From assembly GCF_020387415.1 (NCBI RefSeq), contig NZ_JAGWCB010000006.1:124001-188000 (forward strand): 64,000 nucleotides of DNA, given 5' to 3'. Position numbers and translations under genes: made by a program. This DNA comes from Ideonella benzenivorans. Lineage in GTDB: Bacteria; Pseudomonadota; Gammaproteobacteria; Burkholderiales; Burkholderiaceae_C. Each line of letters opens with the position of its first letter. The first letter of the stretch is position 1. The notes beneath the pieces were generated by a model. That model saw only the letters and a list, made by a program, of their open reading frames with translations. It made no database searches and had not been told where the DNA came from. Shown piece after piece: positions 1-8,077 of this stretch.

Positions 1-297
1 ATCGGTCACCTCGTCGGCCAGGTACTTGATGCGGTACTTGCCGATCTCGATCACGTCGTTGGGGGCCAGCAGCTGCTTCTTGATGGCCTTGCCGTTGATG
101 TAGGTGCCGTTGGTGCTGTTGAGGTCTTCGATGAAGACGTCATCGCCCACCGTCAGCAGCACGGCATGTTCGCCGCTCACGGCGAGGTTGTCGATGACGA
201 TGTCGTTGTAGGGGCGGCGTCCCAGCGTGGTCCGATCCTTCTGGATGGCCACTTCCTTGAGAACCACGTTGTCGAGTGAGACGACCAGCTTGCCCAT
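1..297 (-). CDS. FHA-domain protein (C-terminus outside window)
   Basis: Forkhead-associated domain, a phosphothreonine-peptide reader. The 99 visible residues begin MGKLVVSLDN and carry the family landmarks: LGRRPYNDIVID (the GR near residue 30), SGEHA (near 47) and the NSTNGTYING signature (near 68-77). The gene runs off the left edge, so total length and any further domains are unknown. It is the last visible gene of a leftward set in which a Hanks kinase and a PP2C phosphatase lie just upstream. That arrangement suggests it binds proteins phosphorylated by that kinase. The FHA identity is clear; the partner assignment is inferred from context. Confidence 0.9.
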   Translation of the reverse strand, partial: MGKLVVSLDNVVLKEVAIQKDRTTLGRRPYNDIVIDNLAVSGEHAVLLTVGDDVFIEDLNSTNGTYINGKAIKKQLLAPNDVIEIGKYRIKYLADEVTD

Positions 298-370
298 GAA
301 TACCCTCGTGTTGCCCGCGTCCGGGCTTGTGTCGCGCCGCCTCCGGGGGAATGCGGCGGAATCCTGATGA

Positions 371-1117
371 TCAGTGCAATTTGGCCAGGATGACGGAGAT
401 GTTATCCCGTCCGCCTGCAGCATTGGCGGCGTCCACCAAGGCCGCAGCCTGCTCGTCCAGTGTCTTGTTGATCTGCAACACGTGGGCCATCTGCGGGTCG
501 GTGAGCATGTCGGACAGCCCGTCCGAGCACAACAGGATCACGTCACCCACCTCGACATCATGGGGGTGGACCTCAAGAACCACCTCGGGTTCGACCCCGA
601 CGGCGCGTGTCACCAGATTGCGGTGCAGCGCGTAGGCGGCCTCGGCCGGCGTGATCAGACCGGCGTCGATCTGCTCCTGCAGCAGCGAGTGATCACGGCT
701 GAGCTGGGTCATCCGGCCGTTGCGCAGGCGATACGCTCGCGAATCCCCCAGGTGGCCGATCCAGACCCGGCTGCGCTCGAACAGCGCCGTCACCAGGGTG
801 GTGCCCATGCCGGCGTAGGCCGGCACGGTGCTGGCCGCGGTGAAGACCTGGCGGTTGGCCTCCTGGGCCGCGTCGATCAGGGCCCGGGTCACGGCGCCAT
901 CGTCGGGCGCGGCGCTCAGGCCTTGCAGCCACTGGCGGAAGTGTTCGCGCATGGCCTTGACCGCCATGTCGCTGGCCACCTCGCCGGCGTTGTAGCCACC
1001 CATGCCGTCGGCCAGCAGGCACAGGCCCAGGCCGGCGTCGATCAGGACGGCATCTTCGTTGTTCTGGCGCGCGCGGCCGACGTCGAGCGCGCTGCTGTAT
1101 TCAAGACGCAGTGACAC
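371..1117 (-). CDS. PP2C-family (PPM) Ser/Thr protein phosphatase
   Basis: Metal-dependent protein phosphatase of about 248 residues, expected to dephosphorylate targets of the adjacent kinase. Visible PPM motifs in order: RARQNNEDA near the N-terminus, LLADGMGGYN, GHLGDSRAY, LLCSDGLSD and GGRDNISVI near the end; their aspartates would bind two Mn2+ or Mg2+ ions. I chose the GTG start (VSLRLEYSS) at 1117 because the conserved domain begins there. A longer frame upstream only reads through the kinase gene. The start overlaps the kinase stop by 17 bases, suggesting translational coupling. No signal peptide or membrane segment, so cytoplasmic. Confidence 0.93.
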   Translation of the reverse strand: MSLRLEYSSALDVGRARQNNEDAVLIDAGLGLCLLADGMGGYNAGEVASDMAVKAMREHFRQWLQGLSAAPDDGAVTRALIDAAQEANRQVFTAASTVPAYAGMGTTLVTALFERSRVWIGHLGDSRAYRLRNGRMTQLSRDHSLLQEQIDAGLITPAEAAYALHRNLVTRAVGVEPEVVLEVHPHDVEVGDVILLCSDGLSDMLTDPQMAHVLQINKTLDEQAAALVDAANAAGGRDNISVILAKLH

Positions 1118-2132
1118 GGGGCTCGATCCTGCTGTTGTTCTTGTGGATGTCGGCATTGTCGCGGGATGCGGGCAGGGTGAACCCGTCGCAAGCACGGGCA
1201 ATGAGGCGCAATTCACGGGCCAGCGCATGGCCATCGGCGTGGCGGTCGGCGGGCGACTTGGCCATCATCCGTGCCAGCACATCGCCCAGCACCTCTGGCA
1301 GGTCGGGGCGCAGGCTGCGCAGCGGCGGGGCCGCTTCGCTGGCGATGGCGGCCAGGGTCTCGCCCATCGACGGCCGGTCGAAGGGGCGTTGGCCGGTCAG
1401 CAGCTCGAACAGCACGATGCCCAGCGCGTAGAGGTCGCAGCGGCCATCCAGCGGCACGCCACTGAGCTGTTCGGGGGCCATGTAGCAGGGGGTGCCCACC
1501 AGCAGGCCGCTCAGGCTGTAGCCATGGTCGTCCAGCCGGGCGCAGCCGAAGTCACCGACCTTGAGCGTGCCGCCCTCGGCCGGGTTGAACAGCAGGTTGC
1601 CGGGTTTGAGGTCGCGGTGCACCACGCCCTGGGCATGGGCGTAGGCCAGGGCCTCGGCCACCACGGCGCCCATGCGCAGCACCAGGCCTTCGGGCAGCAG
1701 GCGGCCGGGCTGGGTGTAGCGGGTCAGGTCGCTGCCGGGCACCCATTCCATGGCCAGCCAGCCGCAACGCTCGCCGTTCTGGGTCACGATGCCGGCGCCC
1801 AGCGTGTGGACGATCGCCGGGTGCTGCAGCCGGCCGGCGGCGGCGGCTTCGCGCAGGAAGTAGGTCGTCTGCTGGCCCTCGCGGAAGCGCACGACCTTCA
1901 GCGCGACGAGTTCATCGCTGCCGGCCACGCGGGCCTGGTAGAGCTCGCTTTGCGGGCCCTGGGCACAGGCGCGCAGGATGTGGAAGCCCTCGGTCGCGGC
2001 CGGCAGCACCGAGCTGTCGATCAGCGAGGAGGCGGGCTGGGTGCTGGGCACCGGCGTGGCCGCACCGGCCGGTGGGTCCGCGGGGGACGGCCGGCCCAGG
2101 AGGGTGCGCCAGAAGCGTGCCGCGCCGGCCAT
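1101..2132 (-). CDS. Hanks-type Ser/Thr protein kinase
   Basis: Soluble eukaryotic-like protein kinase of 343 residues. Seen in order: ALKVV (the ATP-binding lysine), HRDLKPGN catalytic loop, VGDFGCA (the DFG metal site), GTPCYMAPEQ activation segment and DLYALGIVLFELLTG. The glycine-rich loop is degenerate: CAQGPQSELYQA replaces the usual GxGxxG. There is no transmembrane helix or PASTA domain, unlike many bacterial Hanks kinases. The start has the purine-rich GGGAGA about ten bases upstream. It overlaps the PP2C gene and is followed by an FHA gene, a kinase-phosphatase-reader set. The terC gene ends 63 bases upstream on the same strand. Substrates are unknown. Confidence 0.93.
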   Translation of the reverse strand: MAGAARFWRTLLGRPSPADPPAGAATPVPSTQPASSLIDSSVLPAATEGFHILRACAQGPQSELYQARVAGSDELVALKVVRFREGQQTTYFLREAAAAGRLQHPAIVHTLGAGIVTQNGERCGWLAMEWVPGSDLTRYTQPGRLLPEGLVLRMGAVVAEALAYAHAQGVVHRDLKPGNLLFNPAEGGTLKVGDFGCARLDDHGYSLSGLLVGTPCYMAPEQLSGVPLDGRCDLYALGIVLFELLTGQRPFDRPSMGETLAAIASEAAPPLRSLRPDLPEVLGDVLARMMAKSPADRHADGHALARELRLIARACDGFTLPASRDNADIHKNNSRIEPRVTAS

Positions 2133-2164
2133 CGTTGTGCTTTCTCCCTGCGGTAGCTCGTCAC

Positions 2165-2170
2165 ATTATC
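2165..2170 (-). promoter_or_regulatory. possible extended -10 element before the kinase gene
   Basis: On the minus strand TGTGATAAT matches an extended -10 (TGn followed by a TATAAT-like hexamer). It would give a start point about 25-30 bases before the kinase ATG. No good -35 is visible in the GC-rich run upstream. If real, the kinase/phosphatase/FHA genes have their own promoter in addition to any read-through from terC. Confidence 0.3.
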
Positions 2171-2195
2171 ACAGGGGGGCGCGGCGCTCGGGCGC

Positions 2196-2885
2196 TCAGG
2201 CGGCATGGGCCGACCGGGCTCTCTGGCGCCCCATCCACCAGCCGGCGGCCAGCACGCCAGCCACCACCACGGCCTGCACCAGCCAGCCGGCCCAGGGGCG
2301 CGGGTCCAGCACCGGGTCCAGCACCGGCTCGCCCACCATCATCTTGGCGGCCGTCCAGGCCAGCACGCCCGCGCCCAGGTAGGTGATGGACGGGAAGCGG
2401 TCCACCAGCTTGAGCACGATGCTGCTGCCCCAGACCACGATGGGCACGCTGATCAGCAGACCGATCACGACCAGGTCGAAAGCACCGTGTGCGGCGCCGG
2501 CCACGCCCAGCACGTTGTCCACGCCCATCAGCGCGTCGGCCACGATGATGGTCTTGAGCGCGCCCCACAGCGTGGTGGCGCTGCCGCCTTCGTGGCCTTC
2601 GCCACCGTCGCCCGGCACCAGCAGCTTGTAGGCGATCCACACCAGGCCCAGGCCGCCGACCAGCATCAGGCCGGGGACCTTCAGCAGCCAGACCACCACC
2701 ATCGTCATCAGTGCGCGGATGCCGATGGCCCCGACCGTGCCCCAGACGATGGCCTTGCGCTGCAGGTGCGTGGGCAGGCTGCGGGCGGCCAGCGCGATGA
2801 CGATGGCGTTGTCGCCGGCCAGGATCAGGTCGATCAGGACGATGGCCGCAAGGGCCGAGAACCATTCAGGGGAAAACAGCGGCAT
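2196..2885 (-). CDS. TerC-family membrane protein under a Mn riboswitch
   Basis: Polytopic inner-membrane protein of 229 residues in the TerC/YjbE family, whose members are linked to metal-ion (often Mn2+) export or metalation of secreted proteins. It has about seven hydrophobic helices. The two family signatures with membrane-embedded aspartates are present: ILAGDNAIVIAL near residue 22 and DALMGVDNVLG in the middle. The leader upstream is a yybP-ykoY riboswitch, the class that usually controls manganese exporters, which supports a role in Mn2+ efflux. The kinase gene follows 63 bases downstream on the same strand. The exact transported ion is inferred from the riboswitch. Confidence 0.92.
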   Translation of the reverse strand: MPLFSPEWFSALAAIVLIDLILAGDNAIVIALAARSLPTHLQRKAIVWGTVGAIGIRALMTMVVVWLLKVPGLMLVGGLGLVWIAYKLLVPGDGGEGHEGGSATTLWGALKTIIVADALMGVDNVLGVAGAAHGAFDLVVIGLLISVPIVVWGSSIVLKLVDRFPSITYLGAGVLAWTAAKMMVGEPVLDPVLDPRPWAGWLVQAVVVAGVLAAGWWMGRQRARSAHAA

Positions 2886-2957
2886 GTCGGTCTTTCGAGG
2901 TGTCGCAGGGATGTGGAGAACACCCTGGCGGACGGACGGGACATGCCGGGAGGAATG

Positions 2958-2993
2958 CCTTCGAACCGCCCGCCAGGGGGCGGGGTTCGAAGG
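2958..2993 (-). promoter_or_regulatory. expression-platform hairpin of the Mn riboswitch
   Basis: On the minus strand CCTTCGAACC is followed 16 bases later by GGTTCGAAGG, a perfect 10-bp stem extended by a GC-rich inner part. The left arm contains the CCTTC that closes the aptamer with GAAGG at 3076-3080, so aptamer closure and this hairpin are mutually exclusive. No U-run follows, so it is not a standard intrinsic terminator. Control of translation, or of Rho access, is more likely. Confidence 0.7.
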
Positions 2994-3080
2994 TCTGGCT
3001 CGGCCACCGGATGGTGGCTGGCGGGCCGGAGGCTTGCGCCTCGTACTGACGACCCGACCGGAAGTGAGCTACTCCCCTTC
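2989..3080 (-). promoter_or_regulatory. yybP-ykoY manganese riboswitch aptamer
   Basis: On the minus strand the leader carries the conserved blocks of the yybP-ykoY class in the right order: GAAGGGGAGTAGC (loop 1 region), GTCAGTACG (loop 3 region), the paired GGCGCAAGCC element, and CAGACCTTC, which closes the first helix by pairing CCTTC with GAAGG. This class senses Mn2+ and often sits before terC/alx/mntP-like genes, as here. It starts about 34 bases after the stop of the upstream terC paralogue. The aptamer call rests on direct motif matching; the ligand is from knowledge of the class. Confidence 0.9.
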
Positions 3081-3088
3081 AGGCCGCG

Positions 3089-3117
3089 AGTATGCCATGG
3101 CGGCCTGAAAACCTCAC
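3089..3117 (-). promoter_or_regulatory. candidate promoter for the riboswitch transcript
   Basis: On the minus strand CATACT (3089-3094) lies 17 bases after GTGAGG (3112-3117). The predicted start point falls just before GAAGGGGAG, so the aptamer would be at the very 5' end of the RNA, as is common for this class. The -35 matches poorly. The same segment forms a 9-bp inverted repeat, TCAGGCCGC/GCGGCCTGA (3079-3108). Confidence 0.4.
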
Positions 3118-3854
3118 TGGCCGCGGGCCCGCAGGGTGCTCACCGTGCGGCCGATCACCAGCACCAGCAGCGCCCCGATGGCGCCGGCGGCGTAGTGCAC
3201 CGCCGGGATCACCTCCACCGTGGCGCCGGCATGGCTGGCCGCCTGGGTGGGCAGGCGGTGCAGCAGCGACGGATCCGTCACCGCCATGCTGCCGGCAATC
3301 CAGCCCAGCAGCATGCCGCCCAGTGTGATGACGACCGGGAAGCGATCCATCAGCTTGATCACCAGCTGGCTGCCGCTGACGATGATGGGGATGCTGACCA
3401 GCAGGCCCAGGATGACCAGCGGCATCTGGTGCTGCCCGCCCACGGCCTGGGCGGCGCCGGCGATCGCGATCACGTTGTCCACGCTCATCACCAGGTCGGC
3501 CACGATGACGGTCTTGACCGCGCCCCAGAGCTTGTCGCTGCCTTCGATCTTGCCGTGCTCGTCCTCTTCATCCGGGGCCAGCAGCTTGACACCGATCCAC
3601 ACCAGCAGCGCGGCGCCGGCCAGCTTCAGATAGGGAATGGCCAGCAGTGTGAGGGCGAAGAAGATCAGCACCACGCGCAGCGCGATGGCGCCGGCCGTGC
3701 CCCAGAGAATGCCCTTGAGGCGTTGATGTTCGGGCAGTTTGCGGCAGGCCAGGGCGATGACGACGGCGTTGTCGCCGCCCAGCAGGATGTCGATCAGGAT
3801 GATCTGGCCCACCCCCAGCCAGAAGGGCAGATGCAGCAGGGATTCCAATTCCAT
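3114..3854 (-). CDS. TerC-family membrane protein (second paralogue)
   Basis: A 246-residue TerC-family protein with the same architecture as its neighbour. Both signature aspartate motifs are present, ILLGGDNAVVIAL near residue 22 and DLVMSVDNVIAI in the middle, and several hydrophobic helices span the inner membrane. The start MELESLLHLP is chosen because the family alignment begins there; the open frame further upstream is mostly non-conserved and crosses the sucD terminator. It precedes the riboswitch, so it is not under that element unless through a shared upstream promoter. Probably a metal transporter or metal-loading factor; specificity is unknown. Confidence 0.9.
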   Translation of the reverse strand: MELESLLHLPFWLGVGQIILIDILLGGDNAVVIALACRKLPEHQRLKGILWGTAGAIALRVVLIFFALTLLAIPYLKLAGAALLVWIGVKLLAPDEEDEHGKIEGSDKLWGAVKTVIVADLVMSVDNVIAIAGAAQAVGGQHQMPLVILGLLVSIPIIVSGSQLVIKLMDRFPVVITLGGMLLGWIAGSMAVTDPSLLHRLPTQAASHAGATVEVIPAVHYAAGAIGALLVLVIGRTVSTLRARGQ

Positions 3855-3926
3855 TGGGTTGGTGCGTGTCGTGGGTGAAACAGTGGCCACGGGTGTGGCT
3901 GCCAATCCAACAGTGTAGGCGCCCAT

Positions 3927-3951
3927 GAAAAAGGCCGCCCGAAGGCGGCCT
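3927..3951 (-). terminator. intrinsic terminator of sucCD
   Basis: On the minus strand AGGCCGCC-TTCG-GGCGGCCT is a perfect 8-bp stem with a stable tetraloop, followed directly by a run of T. It lies 22 bases after the sucD stop and separates sucCD from terC. Confidence 0.93.
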
Positions 3952-3972
3952 GGGGATGGCAACGGGCCGTGC

Positions 3973-4866
3973 TTACAGCAGGGCCTTCAGCAGCTTGCCC
4001 ATCTCGGACGGGTTGCGGGTCACCTTGAAACCGCACTCTTCCATGATGGCCAGCTTGGCGTCCGCCGTGTCGGCGCCACCGGAGATCAGCGCACCTGCGT
4101 GGCCCATGCGCTTGCCCGGAGGGGCGGTGACCCCGGCGATGAAGCCGACGATCGGCTTCTTCATGTTGGCCTTGCACCAGCGGGCGGCTTCGGCCTCGTC
4201 CGGGCCGCCGATCTCGCCGATCATGATGACCGCGTCGGTGTCCGGATCGTCGTTGAAGGCCTTCATCACGTCGATGTGCTTCAGGCCGTTGATCGGGTCG
4301 CCGCCGATGCCCACGCCAGTGGATTGGCCCAGGCCGATCTCGGTCAGCTGCGCCACGGCTTCATAGGTCAGCGTGCCCGAGCGGGACACGACGCCGATGC
4401 GGCCCTTGCGGTGGATGTGGCCCGGCATGATGCCGATCTTGATTTCTTCCGGGGTGATCAGGCCGGGGCAGTTCGGGCCCAGCAGCAGGGTCTTCTTGCC
4501 ACCGGCGGCCTCCTTGGCCTTCATCTTGTTGCGCACCATCAGCATGTCGCGCACGGGGATGCCTTCGGTGATGCAGATCGCCAGGTCCAGGTCGGCTTCG
4601 ACGGCTTCCCAGATCGCGTCGGCGGCGCCGGCGGGCGGCACGTAGATCACCGAGACGGTGGCGCCGGTCTGGCTGGCGGCCTCCTTGACGGTGGCGTAGA
4701 TGGGGATGTCGGAGAACTTCTCACCGGCCTTCTTCGGGTTCACGCCGGCGACGAAACAGTTCTTGCCGTTGGCATAGGCCTGGCAGCCCAGGGTGTGGAA
4801 CTGGCCGGTCTTGCCGGTGATCCCCTGGGTGATGACCTTGGTGTCCTTGTTGATGTAGATCGACAT
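3973..4866 (-). CDS. sucD: succinyl-CoA synthetase alpha subunit
   Basis: Alpha subunit (297 residues, typical length) of the TCA-cycle enzyme that converts succinyl-CoA to succinate with NTP formation. It starts [18 protein letters not shown], the usual N-terminal CoA-binding segment. LLGPNCPG is in the middle, and [10 protein letters not shown] near residue 245 holds the catalytic histidine that is phosphorylated. It lies 23 bases downstream of sucC in the same transcript, and a strong terminator follows. Cytoplasmic alpha2beta2 or alphabeta complex with SucC. Confidence 0.98.
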
Positions 4867-4889
4867 GACTAGATTCCTTCTGGGCGTGC

Positions 4890-6050
4890 TTACTTGACGG
4901 CGGCCACGATCTTGGTGGAGGCGTCGGCCATGGTGTCGGCCGAGATGATGGGCAGGCCGGATTCGGCCAGCATCTTCTTGCCCAGTTCTTCGTTGGTGCC
5001 CTTCATGCGCACGACCAGCGGCACGCTCAGGTTCACGGCCTTGCAGGCCGCGATCACGCCTTCGGCGATGGTGTCGCAGCGCATGATGCCGCCGAAGATG
5101 TTCACCAGAATGCCCTTGACCTTGGGGTTCTTGAGCATCAGCTTGAAGGCTTCGGTGACCTTCTCGGTGGTGGCGCCGCCGCCCACGTCCAGGAAGTTGG
5201 CCGGCTCGCCGCCGAACAGCTTGATGGTGTCCATCGTCGCCATGGCCAGGCCGGCGCCGTTGACCAGGCAGCCGATGTTGCCGTCCAGGCTGATGTAGGC
5301 CAGGTCGAACTTGGAGGCCTCGACTTCGGCCGGATCCTCTTCGTCCAGGTCGCGGTAGGCCACGATCTCGGGGTGACGGAACAGCGCGTTCGCGTCGAAG
5401 TTGAACTTGGCGTCCAGCGCGATCAGGTTGCCCTTGCTGTCACGGTTGAGCGGGTTGATCTCGACCAGCGAGGCATCCGTCTCCATGTAGCAGCGGTACA
5501 GGTTCTTGAACAGCGTGACGGCCTGGTCGACCGTGTGGCCTTCCATGCCGATGGCCTGGGCCACCTTGGCCGCTTGCGCGTCGGTCAGGCCGACCAGCGG
5601 GTCGATGTATTCGGTGACGATCTTCTCGGGCGTCGAGTGGGCGACTTCCTCGATGTCCATGCCGCCCTCGGAGGAGGCGATCAGCGCCACCTTCTGGGTG
5701 CCACGGTCCGTCACCAGGGAGACGTAGAACTCCTTCTGGATGTCGGCGCCTTCTTCGATGTAGAGGCGGCGGACCTTCTGGCCTTCCGGGCCGGTCTGGT
5801 GCGTGACCAGCTGCATGCCCAGGATCTGCTCGGAGAGCTTCTTCACGTCGTCCAGGGTCTTGGCGACCTTGACGCCACCGCCCTTGCCACGGCCACCGGC
5901 GTGGATCTGGGCCTTCACCACCCACACCGGGCCGCCCAGCTTCTGGGCAGCTTCCACCGCCTCTTGCACGTTGAAGGCCGGAATGCCCTTGGGCACCGGG
6001 ACGTCGAACTGGCGCAGGATTTCCTTGCCTTGGTATTCGTGAATCTTCAT
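4890..6050 (-). CDS. sucC: succinyl-CoA synthetase beta subunit
   Basis: Beta subunit (386 residues) with an N-terminal ATP-grasp domain and a C-terminal CoA-ligase domain. It begins [18 protein letters not shown], the canonical start of SucC; an upstream in-frame ATG would add 19 unrelated residues and is rejected. [14 protein letters not shown] is the nucleotide-binding loop. LVEINPL and FLDVGGGA are further family landmarks, and [11 protein letters not shown] lies in the C-terminal domain. First gene of the sucCD transcript. Confidence 0.98.
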
Positions 6051-6336
6051 GGGTGGTCTTTTCGTGAGTTCAGGACGAAAGAGAGGAGCGGAATCCGCGG
6101 CCAGCACATCGACGAATGGGCTGACGGCATCTTCAGGGGCGCCATTCTGCAGGACGGTCGGGCCAACTTTCTGGCCAAAACCCCCAAGGTGCTCGGAGCA
6201 TCAGCCGCAGCGCTTGCAGTCGACTGACAAAGCCCGGCGCACCAGGGAAAGCCCTGATTCAGGCAGCTTTTAAGGCAGCCTATGACCGTAGCATGGCGTG
6301 CTGCACTGCAGCAGCGGGGAAACCCTTGGTGACGGG
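6051..6336. other. intergenic region upstream of sucC
   Basis: 286 bases between recX (which ends at 6337 reading leftward) and sucC. It should hold the sucCD promoter, but I cannot point to convincing -35/-10 boxes. A short inverted repeat, TGCTGCA-C-TGCAGCA, lies at about 6299-6313 just beyond the recX stop. No convincing open frame or RNA is visible. Confidence 0.5.
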
Positions 6337-6945
6337 TCAGAACAGGTCGTCGTCGGCGCTGCCGCCCAGAACCTTGCGCACCACCTCCCCGCTGAACCCG
6401 CGGGCGGCCAGAAAGCGCATCTGCCGCGCGCGTTCGCTGGCGTCGGCCGGCAGGTGGTCGAAGCGCTTGCGCCAGACGTCGCGGGCGCGCTGCACCTCTG
6501 TCTGCCGCAGGCTCTGCACGGTCTCGGCATCCAGGCTGACGCCGTGGCGGGCCAGGTCCTGCCGCAGCCGGGCCAGGCCCTGGCGCGGCGCCCGGCTGTT
6601 CAGCCGGCTTTCGATGAAGCGTTCATCGCTCTGGTAGCGCTGGGTCTGCAGCCAGTCGAGCACGGCATCGACTTCGGCCAGCAGCGCCTCGGTGGCGGCC
6701 GACCGGCTGGCGCGGTCTTCGGTCACCACCGCCGGTGGGGCGATGGCGGCGTCCGGTGCTTCACCGAACGGGTCCCCCTCCCAACCACTGCCCCAGCCAC
6801 TCGGCGGCGCGGTGGCCTCGGCCTCGAAGGCGGCGCGCTTGCGGGCATGGGCCAGCAGCTTGGTGCGCAGCTCGGCCCGGCTGTGCTCGCGCCGGGACTG
6901 CAGGGCCAGGGCCTGCGCCTTGAGACTGAGCGGAGCGCGTTTCAT
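6337..6945 (-). CDS. recX: regulatory protein RecX
   Basis: RecX (202 residues), a modulator that binds the RecA filament and restrains its activities. The sequence is alpha-helical with the three-helix repeats of the family: SRREHSRAELRTKL near the N-terminus, YQSDERFIESRLNSR in the middle and AARGFSGEVVRKVLGG at the end. Residues about 40-75 are a Gly/Pro/Ala-rich insertion not seen in short RecX proteins. It follows recA by 61 bases on the same strand across a strong hairpin, the usual recA-recX arrangement. Confidence 0.95.
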   Translation of the reverse strand: MKRAPLSLKAQALALQSRREHSRAELRTKLLAHARKRAAFEAEATAPPSGWGSGWEGDPFGEAPDAAIAPPAVVTEDRASRSAATEALLAEVDAVLDWLQTQRYQSDERFIESRLNSRAPRQGLARLRQDLARHGVSLDAETVQSLRQTEVQRARDVWRKRFDHLPADASERARQMRFLAARGFSGEVVRKVLGGSADDDLF

Positions 6946-6955
6946 GGGCTGGATG

Positions 6956-6987
6956 TGCCACCGGGCGGCCTGGGCCGCCCGGTGGCA
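6956..6987 (-). terminator. recA-recX intercistronic stem-loop
   Basis: A 15-bp perfect inverted repeat, TGCCACCGGGCGGCC/GGCCGCCCGGTGGCA, fills most of the gap between recA and recX. No T-run follows. A hairpin at this position is known in E. coli to let only a small fraction of recA transcripts reach recX. The same attenuating or mRNA-stabilising role is inferred here. Confidence 0.6.
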
Positions 6988-7006
6988 GGGGGACGAGAAC
7001 TGCGGT

Positions 7007-8077
<1,071 letters not shown>

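Follow-up and report, generated by a model that had tools for sequence, protein, structure and literature searches.

We examined a 64,000-nucleotide stretch of the Ideonella benzenivorans genome (contig NZ_JAGWCB010000006.1, positions 124,001 to 188,000; hereafter the window), at the start of which an RNA element, two terC genes and a kinase-phosphatase-FHA cassette lie side by side. On the minus strand the gene order is sucC, sucD, terC2, the RNA element, terC1, a Hanks-type kinase gene, a PP2C phosphatase gene and an FHA gene. An earlier note on this DNA, made from the letters alone, had proposed that a manganese riboswitch leads an operon of terC, kinase, phosphatase and FHA genes. Every one of these pieces was found at the locus, and a second terC gene upstream, terC2, is absent from that account. 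The RNA element is an alx-type yybP-ykoY (Mn2+) riboswitch aptamer at 2985–3084 on the minus strand, identified by a 22-element alignment, by covariation and with a model, R1, described below.

The aptamer is followed by terC1 (2196–2885, minus strand) and preceded by terC2 (3114–3854, minus strand), which has no RNA in front of it. Both encode TerC-family proteins of the YjbE subfamily, with 156.7 bits for Pfam TerC and 218.1 bits for TIGR03717 in the case of terC1, and 171.3 and 238.3 bits for terC2; both pass the TIGR03717 cut-off of 134.8 bits. The two proteins also exceed the cut-off of the NCBIfam family 'R_switched_YjbE', the name of which (R_switched) already records a link between riboswitch and TerC. 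Next comes the Ser/Thr kinase gene (1101–2132, minus strand; 343 aa, Pfam Pkinase 137.8 bits), with HRDLKPGN and DFG motifs in its sequence. The gap between terC1 and the kinase gene is 63 bases long (2133–2195) and holds no terminator-like site, as had been claimed. The phosphatase gene (371 to about 1156, minus strand) belongs to the Stp1/IreP family (NF033484, 241.4 bits against a cut-off of 230). Its start is uncertain (1117, 1156 or 1234), but the reported overlap of the two genes stands, because the kinase stop codon at 1101–1103 lies inside the phosphatase frame for each candidate start seen (ATG 1234, ATG 1156, GTG 1117). The FHA-domain gene occupies 1–297 of the window on the minus strand and runs past its edge (212 aa at full length; Pfam FHA 68 bits). 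Beyond the window start the kinase-PP2C-FHA cassette continues into a CHASE2-cyclase gene, which overlaps the FHA stop codon (L084, oriented 5342-7300).

At the gathering threshold, no Rfam family was called in the whole window, and a search at E≤10 over 2850–3200 returned just two families, both unrelated (E 0.7 and 3), and no RF00080. The window element does not reach the RF00080 gathering score of 45 bits, which we did not take as defining. The missing call says little, because RF00080 run with cmscan at gathering leaves both the alx (L022) and the mntP (L023) leaders of E. coli K-12 uncalled; the inference from no Rfam match to no riboswitch was rejected on the same ground.

Comparison with relatives was more informative. 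When the DNA of 60 relatives was searched, congeners proved to have the same leader, and versions still recognisable as such turned up elsewhere in the order, in other families; many further weak matches were short and unrelated. Two of the versions from other families scored 30.4 and 18.3 bits with RF00080, both under its cut-off. We aligned 22 elements from Burkholderiales, with the window element among them, and found that GGGGAGUA, CGUCA and AGACC are invariant in all. The consensus structure has 25 pairs, in 12 of which both sides have changed in a compensatory manner. The covariation score is 0.400; shuffles gave 0.177 and slid pairings no more than 0.119. The count of 12 pairs taken alone was reached in 49 of 500 shuffles. 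An alignment of short elements (A2) gave a poorer structure. The hallmarks of yybP-ykoY RNAs are present, namely a conserved L1 (GGGGAGUAG...AGACC) and junction stems with covariation. With Rfam silent, it is thus the comparison with relatives that supports the riboswitch predicted before terC1, and supports it as an alx-like member of the yybP-ykoY family. GC-rich regions fold well, and the lack of an Rfam match would suit a fold that arose by chance in intergenic DNA of high GC content, with no riboswitch there; this explanation is hardly credible, since the window element folds with z=-4.25 against shuffles, and it is contradicted by loops that stay invariant and stems that covary across many genera and by a significant match to E. 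coli alx.

Model R1 was trained on the 22 Burkholderiales elements alone and contains nothing from E. coli. It matches the E. coli alx leader with 50 bits (E=6.5e-11) and the mntP leader with 28 bits (E=3.5e-5), these E-values being rough; the window element, which is in the training set, scores 92.2 bits. The L3 segment of the window element reads CGUCANYACG, as against CGUCAACAUACUUGG in canonical yybP-ykoY, and this type is shared with the E. coli alx leader. Further likenesses to alx are the same loops, a hairpin that competes with P1, and a TerC-family gene downstream. The differences are that alx encodes a protein of TerC subfamily TIGR03718 rather than YjbE, and that no kinase cassette follows it. 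By sequence comparison the window RNA is an alx-type yybP-ykoY riboswitch, a member of a known family that is coupled to terC in the ordinary way, and it would be expected to bind Mn2+.

The same genome carries a canonical Mn2+ riboswitch (L001, G000:C16:492435-492606; 104.7 bits) before a Gdt1/UPF0016-type gene, and this copy, which lies elsewhere than the window, is the sole RF00080 match in the genome at E≤0.001. It resembles the window element in L1 (GGGGAGUAG and GCAAGACC) and is homologous to it by model R1 (30.3 bits), whereas its L3 reads CGUCAACAcACUUGG and the window element goes unreported in the RF00080 search. The departure of the window L3 from CGUCAACAUACUUGG could suggest a relative of the Mn2+ riboswitches whose shorter L3 makes it respond mainly to pH or to a different metal; alx and mntP reporters are reported to respond to alkaline pH as well as to Mn2+ (PMC9603457). 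We consider a change of ligand very unlikely, given that E. coli alx, the reporter of which is activated by Mn2+ according to the same study (PMC9603457), has the same L3 subtype, and that the downstream genes are of the TerC family. What emerges is an alx-type Mn2+ riboswitch that goes uncalled at Rfam's cut-off. A model of this subtype has matches in 114 of the 250 family genomes sampled, some of the weak ones being canonical or alx-gene copies, as seen within the genus. RF00080 exceeds its cut-off in 121 of the 250. Where R1 and RF00080 matches fall on one contig (19 genomes), no places coincide when compared by eye.

Directly before the aptamer lies a -10-like sequence, TGGCATACT (3089–3097, minus strand), a putative promoter from which a riboswitch-terC1 unit would start just after terC2. 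Of 20 RNA-kinase loci, 13 have a loose pattern of this sort, TGnnnn[AC][AC]T, 20–22 nt upstream of GGGG, a count made without a shuffle control. Downstream of the aptamer lies UCGAAGG, an exact 7-nt complement of CCUUCGA, the 3' strand of P1; their pairing would compete with P1, and the possible hairpin formed in this way (2958–2993, minus strand) is a candidate expression platform. Among the 19 elements scanned, 15 have complements of 5–9 nt that could compete with P1, and the leader of E. coli alx folds likewise; the lowest-energy fold of the window tail taken on its own prefers a different hairpin. No intrinsic terminator-like site was found between the aptamer and terC1 in the window, and from this we infer that control of terC1 is probably translational, and probably on at high Mn2+. 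Binding of Mn2+ would stabilise P1 and the aptamer, the competing hairpin would be prevented, and terC1 would be translated, such that a TerC metal exporter or metalation protein would be made at high manganese.

The RNA and the kinase cassette are often found apart. The order sucCD-terC-kinase-PP2C-FHA is widespread and for the most part comes without the RNA. The 60-genome panel has it, also in variant forms, at loci with no RNA, and in the other genera of this panel RNA-terC1 stands away from the kinase gene. Within the genus Ideonella, a strong RNA match (≥75 bits) was found in 8 of 16 genomes, in all cases before a terC gene adjoining the kinase gene, and five weaker matches (30–40 bits) precede alx- or Gdt1-type genes. 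The panel had pointed to a linkage of RNA and kinase confined to Ideonella; this was rejected when 12 more genomes in nine other genera were found to have it. A kinase match is present in 129 of the 250 family genomes, and we fetched 60 kinase loci, made up of 12 candidates picked by eye by crossing RNA matches with kinase matches and of others, mostly short kinase frames. RNA-terC lies upstream of the kinase gene in the 12 candidates and in none of the other 48 loci, and five of those 48 stretches contain no terC at all. The 12 in 60 is a biased rate; linkage in the 250-genome sample amounts to at least 13, the window's genome included. At the loci compared, RNA was scored with a motif script, and diverged copies may have escaped it. 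RNA-terC is thus found upstream of the kinase gene in at least 20 genomes of 10 genera (8 Ideonella genomes and at least 12 in the nine others), and the expectation that gene order would be kept in relatives is borne out.

In a tree of TerC proteins, 16 of the 17 rows in the clade of terC1 are RNA-led by the motif script. The terC2 clade is mostly without RNA, but several of its members from other genera, and the G011 gene, are RNA-led; a third clade has none. Seven Ideonella terC1 genes that stand before a kinase gene form one branch, with support 91/91. Outside Ideonella, a gene for about 150 aa lies between terC1 and the kinase gene in 10 of the 12 RNA-linked loci. This gene (MEKIAVFVNDAEHA...) is seen at L320-L322, L331, L332, L337, L340, L346, L369 and L370, and its protein of about 149 aa, as tested with the L320 copy, has no Pfam or NCBIfam match.

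The gap between terC1 and the kinase gene contains the sequence TGTGATAATGT (2163–2173, minus strand), which resembles an extended -10 and is the sole match to TGTGNTAANGT in the window (0.01 expected). A possible extended -10 before the kinase had been named in the earlier note as the chief alternative to its operon, and the motif is not only present but conserved as a putative promoter. Of the 17 terC-kinase gaps in the first panel, 13 have its strict form (0.002 expected), eight of them at RNA-linked loci and the other five at RNA-free loci of Ideonella; the gaps lacking it are those of G022, G028 and G026, from other genera, and of G003, from the same genus. A looser form, GTGnTA[AC]n[GT]T, picked after viewing the data, is present in all 20 RNA-linked gaps (0.04 expected), of which 12 have the strict form. 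Among RNA-free gaps of at least 45 bases the looser motif is found in 8 of 36; 16 further RNA-free gaps are shorter, and in RNA-free relatives the kinase gene and terC2 are often nearly fused. We read the motif as a candidate kinase promoter that is kept wherever the riboswitch unit stands upstream, in other words as insulation.

The locus probably consists of two adjacent, separately started transcription units. The sequence comparisons show that the RNA and the alx leader are homologous, and they show the covariation, the competing complement, the conservation of the gap motif and the gene order; Mn2+ binding, the direction and level of control, and promoter activity are the predicted parts of this arrangement. 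The first unit would be the riboswitch and terC1; the second would be the kinase-PP2C-FHA(-cyclase) cassette, with a start of its own at the extended -10 promoter of the gap and not primarily under riboswitch control, and some message might be added to it by leaky readthrough from terC1. Translational control of terC1 would hardly reach the kinase, because the kinase gene has its own putative promoter; readthrough is possible because no terminator separates the two genes. The linkage of RNA-terC and kinase is real but probably insulated. Several observations weigh against separate starts. The recurrence of RNA-terC upstream of the kinase gene in 10 genera could mean selected co-control, and none of the 20 RNA-linked loci has an intrinsic terminator in the terC-kinase gap. 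The motif is an incomplete fit to an extended -10 (TGnTAAnGT), a -35 to go with it was not found, a general sigma-70 promoter scan gave no site in 1–6000, and its looser form was chosen after the fact. It is also missing from 28 of the 36 RNA-free gaps of at least 45 bases and from the gap of G003, where the kinase match is weak and the gap is 8 nt.

The operon of the earlier note would be a single Mn2+-controlled transcript of terC1, kinase, phosphatase and FHA genes, through which manganese would set the expression of both a transporter and a metal-dependent phospho-switch. PP2C phosphatases require Mn2+ or Mg2+, which says nothing about transcription. The 63-base gap without a terminator and the linkage in 20 genomes of 10 genera favour such a transcript, but a promoter-like motif stands between terC and kinase genes in 20 of 20 linked loci, an extra gene intervenes in most of those outside the genus, and in 48 of the 60 fetched loci the cassette persists with no RNA. 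The aptamer, moreover, is followed by no terminator and probably acts on the translation of terC1. The riboswitch-led operon therefore does not hold up well, and we regard it as rather unlikely. A combination of both starts, in which the Mn2+ riboswitch and terC have been kept upstream in at least 10 genera since readthrough at high Mn2+ tops up kinase and phosphatase above a basal level from the gap promoter, is likewise a doubtful proposition, and quite unlikely in our judgement; were readthrough true, metal status would be tied to protein phosphorylation. Searches of an open-licence library turned up no paper that pairs a Mn2+ riboswitch with an operon of kinase and phosphatase genes, a result that counts only weakly as a sign of absence. 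The case shows that the conservation of gene order and of promoters can test a plausible 'riboswitch-led signalling operon'.

The kinase and PP2C genes are adjacent, as in Stp1/PknB-type pairs, and the phosphatase passes the NF033484 cut-off. The locus differs from those pairs in that the kinase, at 343 aa, scores 191.4 bits against a PASTA-kinase cut-off of 450, and in that the cassette adjoins sucCD-terC and is followed by the FHA and CHASE2-cyclase genes.

Two alx-type elements back to back were seen in six Burkholderiales genomes (L126, L132 (=L114), L135, L137, L138 (=L115) and L153). One element of each pair lies before a TerC gene and the other before a LysR-like regulator gene, with the L3 on the LysR side often reading CGUCAAUUCG. 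The identity of the LysR protein was confirmed with Pfam for L132 and rests on similar N-termini for the other five. At L144 a LysR-like gene has a single element.

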